A stretch of 64,000 nucleotides of DNA, taken from assembly GCF_007655485.1 (NCBI RefSeq), contig NZ_VJXQ01000003.1:179742-243741 (forward strand), in the 5' to 3' direction. The stretch is from Halobellus captivus (GTDB lineage Archaea; Halobacteriota; Halobacteria; Halobacteriales; Haloferacaceae). The position numbers and the translations under genes are program-made. The notes under the pieces were generated by a model. It saw only the letters and a list, made by a program, of their open reading frames with translations, did not search any database and had not been told where the DNA came from. Within the stretch, counting starts at the first letter, position 1. The number at the start of each line of letters is the position of its first letter. Positions 14,287 through 15,577 of this stretch are shown in pieces.

Positions 14287-14360
14287 GGGCGCGTAGCTCA
14301 GTCGGACAGAGCGTCGGACTTCTAATCCGATGGTCGCGGGTTCGAATCCCGTCGCGCTCG
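14287..14360 (+). tRNA. tRNA-Arg (anticodon UCU)
   Basis: A 74-base cloverleaf without intron. Acceptor GGGCGCG (14287-14293) pairs with CGCGCTC (14353-14359, one G-U). D stem GCTC/GAGC; anticodon stem TCGGA/TCCGA with loop CTTCTAA giving anticodon TCT at 14321-14323; T stem GCGGG/CCCGT with loop TTCGAAT. No CCA is encoded. A T-rich TATA-like stretch (CCTTTTTACCC, about 14254-14264) sits about 25-30 bases upstream. It reads AGA/AGG, rare codons in this GC-rich DNA. Decayed copies of its 3' half follow downstream. Confidence 0.95.
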
Positions 14361-14620
14361 TTCGGCCTTCGGCCTCACTCGCGCGACGTACTCCCGATCG
14401 CTTCGCTCTCGGGAGTCCCGTCGCGCTCTTCTACACGGCGGCGAGCGGAGCGACCAGCGAACCGACATATGAGACTCGAATCAGAGAGGAGCCTCGCTCC
14501 GACTGTGGTTCGAATTTCACCGCACTCGTGAAATCTCCGATTTCACTCACGAGGCGATTTCCCGCTCACTTCGTTTGCGGGGATCCCGTCACGCTCTCCC
14601 CGATCCGTCCCTATGAGAGC
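14361..14620. repeat. Degenerate copies of the tRNA-Arg 3' end
   Basis: A 300-base gap after tRNA-Arg with no convincing gene. It holds three decayed versions of the tRNA T-arm/acceptor sequence GGTTCGAATCCCGTCGCGCTC: at 14411-14428 (GGGAGTCCCGTCGCGCTC), at 14505-14528 (GTGGTTCGAATTTCACCGCACT plus CG) and at 14577-14596 (GCGGGGATCCCGTCACGCTC). They are spaced 70-95 bases apart. This is what repeated integration or excision at the tRNA 3' end would leave. Confidence 0.7.
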
Positions 14621-14662: not shown

Positions 14663-15577
14663 ATGACGAAAGTCAGCGTGGTCGGTGCGGCCGGAACTGT
14701 CGGCGCGGCGGCCGGGTACAATCTCGCGCTCAGGGACGTGGTCGACGAACTCGTCTTCGTCGACATCCCCGACAAGGAGGACGAGACCGTCGGGCAGGCG
14801 GCCGACGCGAACCACGGGGTCGCCTACGACTCCAATACCGAGGTCGTCCAGGGCACCTACGAGGACACGGCCGGGTCCGACGTCGTCGTCATTACCGCGG
14901 GAATCCCCCGCCAACCCGGACAGACCCGGATCGATCTGGCGGGCGACAACGCGCCGATTATGGAGGATATCGGCTCTTCGCTCGCGGAGTACAACGACGA
15001 CTTCGTCTCCGTCACCACCTCGAACCCCGTCGATCTGCTGAACCGCCACCTCTACGAGTCGGGCGAGCGCGACCGCCACACGGTAATCGGCTTCGGCGGC
15101 CGCCTCGACTCCGCGCGCTTCCGGTACGTACTCAGCCAGCGCTTCGGTGCGCCCGTAAAGAACGTCGAGGCGACGATCCTCGGCGAGCACGGCGACGCGC
15201 AGGTCCCCGTCTTCTCGAAGGTCCGGATCAATGGCGCGGATCCGGAGTTCTCGGCCGCCGAGCGCGAGGAGATCCTCGGCGACCTCACGAAGTCTGCGAT
15301 GGACGTCATCGAGCGGAAGGGGGCGACACAGTGGGGTCCGGCGACGGGCGTGGCCCATATGGTCGAGGCGATCCTCCGCGACACCGGCGAGGTGCTCCCC
15401 GGTTCGATCGTTCTCGACGGCGAGTTCGGCTACGAGAACACCGCCGTCGGCGTGCCGCTGAAACTCGGCTCCGACGGCGTCGAGGAGGTCGTCGAGTGGG
15501 AACTCGACGAGTACGAGGCGGACCTGCTGGACGACGCCGCGGAGAAACTGTCCGAGCAGTACGAGACGCTCTCGTAG
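14663..15577 (+). CDS. mdh: Malate dehydrogenase (LDH-like)
   Basis: A 304-aa NAD-dependent malate dehydrogenase of the LDH-like tetrameric type known from haloarchaea, catalysing malate/oxaloacetate interconversion in the TCA cycle. Rossmann motif [11 protein letters not shown] at residues 8-18; the Asp of FVDIPDKE after beta-2 favours NAD. Active-site loop [13 protein letters not shown] carries the substrate arginines, [10 protein letters not shown] the second arginine site, and [12 protein letters not shown] the catalytic His. The long upstream open frame is rejected because it runs through the tRNA remnants. Confidence 0.95.

Follow-up and report, generated by a model that had tools for sequence, protein, structure and literature searches.

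Arrays of hairpins and sense and antisense tRNA 3'-end copies behind tRNA-Arg(TCT) of Halobellus captivus and other haloarchaeal tRNA genes

The spacer behind tRNA-Arg(TCT)

The 64-kb stretch of Halobellus captivus DNA analyzed here (hereafter "the window", to which all coordinates refer) includes one tRNA gene, tRNA-Arg(TCT). An adenylate kinase-like gene lies upstream on the opposite strand, and a malate/lactate dehydrogenase-like gene (mdh), used as the right-hand synteny anchor, lies downstream; both are named by reading only. The 302-nt spacer between tRNA-Arg(TCT) and mdh contains copies of the tRNA 3' end ("tail copies") in both sense and antisense orientation, with a hairpin in every gap. 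Starting from the tRNA's own 3' end (S), the order is hairpin, antisense copy (AS), hairpin, and sense copy S2 (module A), followed by hairpin, antisense copy, hairpin, and sense copy S' (module B), and then by module A again:

14287–14360, plus strand: tRNA-Arg(TCT) (ARAGORN; Rfam RF00005, 73 bits)
14339–14360, plus strand: master copy S, i.e., T-arm, acceptor strand, and discriminator of tRNA-Arg(TCT)
14361–14380, plus strand: module A, hairpin 1 (GGCC-TTC-GGCC), with a conserved CACTC edge
14381–14388, plus strand: AS1, antisense of the tRNA acceptor/T-stem 3' strand (GCGCGACG), whose positions 1–7 track the tRNA in 18 Arg loci
14389–14418, plus strand: module A, hairpin 2
14390–14416, minus strand: GA mini-hairpin with an 8-bp stem, inside hairpin 2 of module A
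14417–14428, plus strand: S2, first sense tail copy (CCCGTCGCGCTC)
14429–14472, plus strand: module B, hairpin 1, decayed (by comparison with the B modules of relatives)
14473–14482, plus strand: AS2, antisense T-arm (GACTCGAATC; pattern GATTYGAAYC in 94 units)
14483–14506, plus strand: module B, hairpin 2 (AGAGAGGAGC..GCTCCGACTGT), similar to the AGGGAGC..GCGACCGT type
14507–14528, plus strand: S', second sense copy, a decayed T-arm and acceptor copy (5/22 mismatches to S)
14529–14586, plus strand: second module A (hairpin 14529–14548, decayed antisense copy 14549–14556, hairpin 14557–14586), with 64/93 identity between the two S + A stretches
14585–14596, plus strand: S4, third sense tail copy (CCCGTCACGCTC)
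14663–15577, plus strand: mdh

An earlier note on this DNA had described three decayed tail copies downstream of the tRNA and no remaining mobile gene. All three copies are real (14417–14428, 14507–14528, and 14585–14596, the one it placed at 14505 being the decayed T-arm and acceptor strand at 14507–14528), and the 302-nt spacer is indeed without a mobile gene; the antisense copies and intervening hairpins were absent from that description. As 16-nt copies of the tRNA 3' end, the first and third lie at 14413–14428 (94%) and 14581–14596 (88%). When the spacer was shuffled 2000 times, the best 16-nt match never reached ≤2 mismatches and reached 3 mismatches in 7 shuffles, compared to one match at 2 and one at 3 mismatches for the real spacer in the same test. 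The middle copy (14507–14528), which as a lone 16-mer has 5 mismatches and is not significant, opens a gapless 93-nt repeat (14339–14431 vs 14507–14599) with 64/93 identical positions, the best of 300 shuffles reaching 44. Ordinary tandem duplication of the tRNA can be dismissed since the 3' arm alone is copied and antisense copies are present, and no Rfam family scored above its gathering threshold in the spacer, the sole such match being RF00005 at the tRNA itself, which rules out a known Rfam RNA.

Hairpin 1 of the second module A is exchanged arm for arm relative to the first (GAAATC..GATTTC vs GGCC..GGCC), and the same hairpin is swapped in relatives for TGAAATC..GATTTCA or TTCGCTTCGCTCA. 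The GA mini-hairpin of module A, on the minus strand, is the sole GA hairpin with a stem >4 bp in the window, and resembles d(GCGAAGC), a very stable DNA mini-hairpin. This spacer belongs, in decayed form, to a class of tRNA-tail hairpin arrays found across haloarchaea.

Unit anatomy and match to the resident tRNA

Reading 90 loci yielded 94 units, 76 of which begin at a tRNA called by ARAGORN. Each unit starts at the last base of the tRNA and consists of a hairpin (hp1), an antisense copy, a second hairpin (hp2), and a sense 3'-end copy, the antisense copy corresponding to the T-arm in type B and to the acceptor strand in type A. Units are stacked in tandem, and the two types alternate behind tRNA-Arg(TCT) in the window. 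S' was identical to S over 12 nt in 65/94 units. One extra T-loop base (e.g., GGTTCACAATCC) was seen in 13/94 sense copies, recurrently across tRNAs and genomes.

The antisense T-arm fit its own tRNA better than in all of 2000 permutations; this specificity comes from two positions, the second and third past the universal T-loop. For A modules, the tRNA's own 8-mer was found in an S-AS-S arrangement at 18/42 Arg loci, compared to 0/1232 tests with foreign 8-mers. Across these 18 Arg loci, positions 1–7 of S1 and AS formed Watson–Crick pairs in 126/126 cells, with two to three different pair types at four positions; the loci had been preselected at ≤1 mismatch per copy, so that the perfection of the pairing partly reflects selection, while the variety of pair types does not. 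The antisense arm thus covaries with the tRNA in tRNA-Arg arrays.

The hairpins carry sequence signatures of their own. An hp1 core of the form GA-NN-loop-NN-GA was present in 45/76 units (vs 10/1520 shuffled), with AC/GT variants in 29 and GC/GC variants in 14, and hp2 falls into conserved sequence types common to different tRNAs. The GAATC end forms a fixed T·G pair in 64/94 units, and the AS-hp2-S' segment is predicted to fold as RNA with an average z of about −4.8 against mononucleotide shuffles. Setting one fixed position aside, the ratio of G·T to A·C pairs on the transcript strand was 6:5 in hp1 stems and 0:13 in inner hp2 stems, unlike tRNA acceptor stems of the same genomes, where only G·T occurred, although this test between RNA and DNA level is weakly informative. 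Its counts are small and dominated by shared ancestry, so that selection at the RNA level may also be at work.

Some of these features would be expected of a functional RNA. The array would then be co-transcribed with the tRNA, and its antisense arms would stop the spare tails from mispairing with the tRNA 5' strand, or it would serve as a processing, termination, or stability structure. Every post-tRNA sense copy does have an antisense arm ahead of it that is able to sequester it, and the folding scores, the compensatory pairs, and the fixed T·G pair on the sense strand all point in the same direction. We nevertheless consider such a role unlikely, as arrays are patchily present among close relatives, the inside of the hairpins lacks a G·U excess, the GA mini-hairpin of module A sits on the opposite strand, and Rfam finds the tRNA alone above its gathering score.

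Distribution across tRNAs, genomes, and integration sites

We next surveyed tRNA genes for their own 17-nt tail (≤2 mismatches) within 300 nt downstream. In the H. captivus genome (43 Rfam tRNA matches), the own tail was found downstream of 13/43 tRNAs and upstream of 0/43, while foreign tails in the downstream spacers reached ≤2 mismatches in 1/1542 tests. Genomes from two other haloarchaeal families, in each of which 30 tRNAs were surveyed out of 45 and 44 found, both had own tails downstream of 16/30 tRNAs (upstream, 1 and 0), and a genome outside the order had 3/30 (of 50 tRNAs found; upstream, 2). Together with the shuffles, the comparison of own and foreign tails rules out chance similarity in GC-rich spacer DNA. 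Modules of both types were found in relatives behind tRNA-Arg(CCT), and A modules behind tRNA-Arg(CCG), each with the arm of the resident tRNA. When all tRNAs of the three haloarchaeal genomes were scanned by the own-8-mer rule, A-type units were scarce (2/43, 1/30, and 2/30), so that type A is chiefly a feature of tRNA-Arg and the more usual type is B.

At a broader scale, the exact S-AS-S pattern was detected in 40/53 genomes of the order and in 0/241 other genomes of the phylum, and a reversed-pattern control gave zero matches in any genome of this phylum sample. Within genome G000, the exact S-AS half-pattern was confined to four tRNAs and the AS-S half-pattern to the same four plus one unrelated chance match, which rules out a genome-wide dispersed repeat. 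At least 120 stretches of a public genome contig set matched the exact pattern, of which 80 were analyzed, yielding 81 matches. Taking record titles as the guide to haloarchaeal status, 35 of the 43 haloarchaeal matches had a tail copy at ≤3 mismatches, and none of the 38 non-haloarchaeal ones did (all ≥5/12 mismatches). The haloarchaeal matches include Halorubrum, Haloferax, Natrinema, Natrialba, Haloarcula, Halobacterium, Halorientalis, and Halobellus, with exact units in Haloferax mucosum and Haloarcula rara. Separately, on two bacterial contigs (L301 and L333), the 3' end of tRNA-Pro and of tRNA-Gln recurs behind the gene as a near-perfect inverted copy, with no direct copy. Overall, the layout of the units, their tRNA specificity, and their confinement, both to tRNA 3' flanks within the H. 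captivus genome and, among the phylum genomes sampled, to a single order, are established by these data.

Within the genus, array modules occur behind tRNA-Arg(TCT) in 12/17 genomes, H. captivus included, the first module being A or B depending on the genome and the two types alternating from there (read by eye). The other five genomes (G001, G008, G010, G012, and G016) have no array adjoining this tRNA; they are also without arrays at tRNA-Phe and tRNA-Leu(CAA), and their spacers are visibly A+T-richer. Across the 12 array-bearing genomes, mdh lies at a distance of 217 to 7846 nt, and the genes in between are not closed off by a tail copy on their right. In the six intervals listed, these genes appear ordinary by eye (surface protein, amidohydrolase, Rieske, DJ-1/PfpI, HxlR), and no integrase was recognized by eye among their ORFs. 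In G002, G005, and G006, the interval from array to mdh includes a Rieske-type ferredoxin and an amidohydrolase-like gene, which are missing in other relatives (by eye).

Comparison at other tRNAs points to turnover of whole units. At tRNA-Phe, a unit lies directly behind the tRNA in 7/17 genus genomes and after a further tail copy in an eighth (G011), the remaining genomes having none (by eye). For one genome with the unit (G006) and one without it (G012), the right flank is 72% identical over 108 nt from about 10 nt past the unit end. Since the flank is common to both from just past the unit, the two appear to differ by one whole unit ending in a tail copy, although orthology of the empty site rests here on this single 108-nt alignment, and the two genomes are not linked by an upstream comparison. 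Turnover at the tRNA 3' end involves whole units, with the tRNA-Phe difference fitting a gain as well as a loss. At tRNA-Leu(CAA), tandem copies extend past S' into hp1 by 11–42 nt (by eye).

The earlier note had attributed the tail copies to repeated integration and loss of mobile elements, i.e., viruses or plasmids would have integrated serially at the tRNA 3' end, each lost insert leaving a tail copy behind. A tail duplicate is the usual trace of tRNA-targeting integrases, as described in a review of archaeal tyrosine recombinases and a Haloquadratum study (PMC8371274, PMC3119063), and tRNA-Arg(TCT) is among the most used archaeal integration targets (PMC8371274). Comparing the locus across relatives, as the note had suggested, did reveal an integrated element: in a genome of the same family (G021), a 2.16-kb insert has tRNA-Arg(TCT) on one side and, on the other, an exact 17-nt tail copy followed by a B module. 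Within this insert are a BAT/HTH_10 gene and, as a weak match that falls below the Pfam cut-off, an N-terminal fragment of an integrase (Phage_int_SAM_4, E 9e-4), so the use of this tRNA by integrases stands. An intact integrase ORF behind tRNA-Leu(CAA) in G002 is likewise in line with serial integration. The reading of the copies themselves as three independent scars does not hold, however, as the same spacing, antisense copies, and hairpins recur behind other tRNA-Arg genes and many further tRNAs. Integration leaves neither antisense copies nor hairpins, the layout is identical in many genera, and the distance to the end of the first copy is narrow (66–177 nt in 45/46 cases across three genomes). 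The ends of the G021 insert are also unlike unit ends, and we regard serial integration as a distinctly improbable source of the arrays.

Searches of mobile elements bear on the same question. The exact B-type pattern had two matches on viral contigs, one probably corresponding to a host tRNA flank beside a provirus and the other unrelated, and one A-type query had no match in phage or plasmid records; no virus- or plasmid-borne unit came to light in these searches, which counts against serial scars. Viral contig L204 (13744–14000) carries tail-virus-like genes (by eye) as far as a tRNA-Glu(TTC), behind which lies a complete unit; this part is probably host sequence bordering a provirus. In G002 (L457, 1559–2847), a further tRNA-Leu(CAA) is directly followed by the intact tyrosine integrase ORF (Phage_integrase, 1.8e-12), an integrated element at a tRNA that carries an array elsewhere. 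Three loci (L037 in G013, L042 in G014, and L045 in G011) hold tRNA-Arg(CCG)-tail arrays with no tRNA alongside, apparently cut off from their tRNA by an insertion. Because an insertion separates array from tRNA both in G021 and at tRNA-Arg(CCG) in three genomes, array and insertion are best seen as different things.

Possible origins and comparison with known systems

Compensatory arms and the gain or loss of whole units are likewise evident in these arrays, and the array in the window is decaying and without a mobile gene. One possible origin is a mobile palindromic family, akin to REP/BIME or integron attC, which would recognize any tRNA T-arm and insert at the tRNA 3' end as folded single-stranded DNA, taking its arm sequence from the target. 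The sharing of hp2 types between different tRNAs, the precise presence or absence of units, their confinement to tRNA ends in the H. captivus genome, and the recurrent one-base T-loop insertion in S' (13/94), as an imprecise junction would give, all speak for such a family. Yet no transposase or recombinase is tied to the units, those found away from a tRNA look like arrays severed by an insert, and tandem copies that enter hp1 by 11–42 nt are unlike the product of simple insertion, making this origin quite unlikely in our view.

We instead favor, at roughly even confidence, that recombination at the DNA level, together with foldback copying, generates and reshapes the arrays at the end of the tRNA, since integration scars alone do not account for the antisense copies, hairpins, and spacing, and the inner stems show no G·T excess. 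Under this DNA-level recombination and copying, the arrays would act and evolve as DNA: direct sense copies would undergo recombination among themselves and with the tRNA end, through which units are lost or multiplied, while exchange or foldback copying between inverted copies would keep the antisense arms matched to the local tRNA, and the stable hairpins may promote foldback or flag the site for a recombinase. The arrays may themselves be neutral or selfish DNA. Several observations count against this reading. Neither a recombinase nor a donor molecule was found for the arrays, and the fixed T·G pair would amount to an ordinary wobble if the array were transcribed in sense. The hp2 types common to different tRNAs count against local foldback copying alone, which yields none. 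This sharing, the T-loop insertions in S' (13/94), and the GAATC end (64/94) are left unexplained by DNA-level recombination and copying.

A bolder proposal, which we put forward as possible but doubtful, is that haloarchaea have an undescribed element or enzyme system by which the 3' arm of a tRNA gene is copied, in inverted as well as direct orientation, into the region behind that gene, with stable DNA mini-hairpins linking the copies, for one-third to one-half of their tRNA genes. Such copies would track tRNA identity and either offer integrases additional or decoy landing sites, or move as folded single-stranded DNA via a tRNA-arm-specific recombinase. If the array reading holds, one unexplained process that duplicates the tRNA end in sense and antisense would shape the DNA flanking a third to half of the tRNA genes in haloarchaea. 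This would bear on why tRNA genes are integration hotspots, and on what lets palindromes persist in archaeal chromosomes with their arms still matched. This reading is testable in culturable haloarchaea, and array sites are easily mistaken for prophage scars or partial tRNAs in annotation.

The closest mention that we found in open-licence PMC text is a passing one of tRNA remnants in Haloferax gibbonsii LR2-5, and no earlier description of the arrays was found there. In this genome, 11 partial tRNAs were reported, several directly adjacent to the full copy, which are possibly the same as the sense copies of the arrays; the portions of the main text available to us do not describe antisense copies, hairpins, tRNA-tracking arms, or a wider distribution (PMC7921747). 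The PATEs and other short elements of Haloquadratum resemble the arrays in being short, palindrome-bearing, haloarchaeal, and with no room for a transposase, and differ in their kinship to IS605-type elements and, in the text available, in having no described tie to tRNA tails (PMC3119063).

Compared to the attL/attR duplications left by archaeal tyrosine recombinases (SNJ2, SSV, and pleolipovirus types), the arrays likewise consist of direct 3'-end copies downstream of an intact tRNA, and integrases of relatives also target this tRNA. The direct repeat is present behind tRNA-Arg(TCT), but the 302-nt spacer has no integrase element between tRNA and copy, and one is found, in decayed form, only in G021. 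Unlike attL/attR, arrays have no element between copies, and they show short regular spacing, antisense copies, hairpins, and tandem stacking; in the three genomes surveyed, they occur at a third to half of the tRNA genes examined. Integron attC sites are folded imperfect hairpins that flank mobile cassettes and are used with an integron integrase; the arrays have hairpins, but the genes past the array are not bounded by tail copies, and no integrase was recognized by eye among the ORFs listed. Finally, REP/BIME and other palindromic extragenic repeats are palindromes of alternating orientation stacked in arrays. The arrays described here share these alternating palindromic units, and differ in that they are not dispersed genome-wide (G000) and in that their arms copy the neighboring tRNA and vary from one tRNA to the next.
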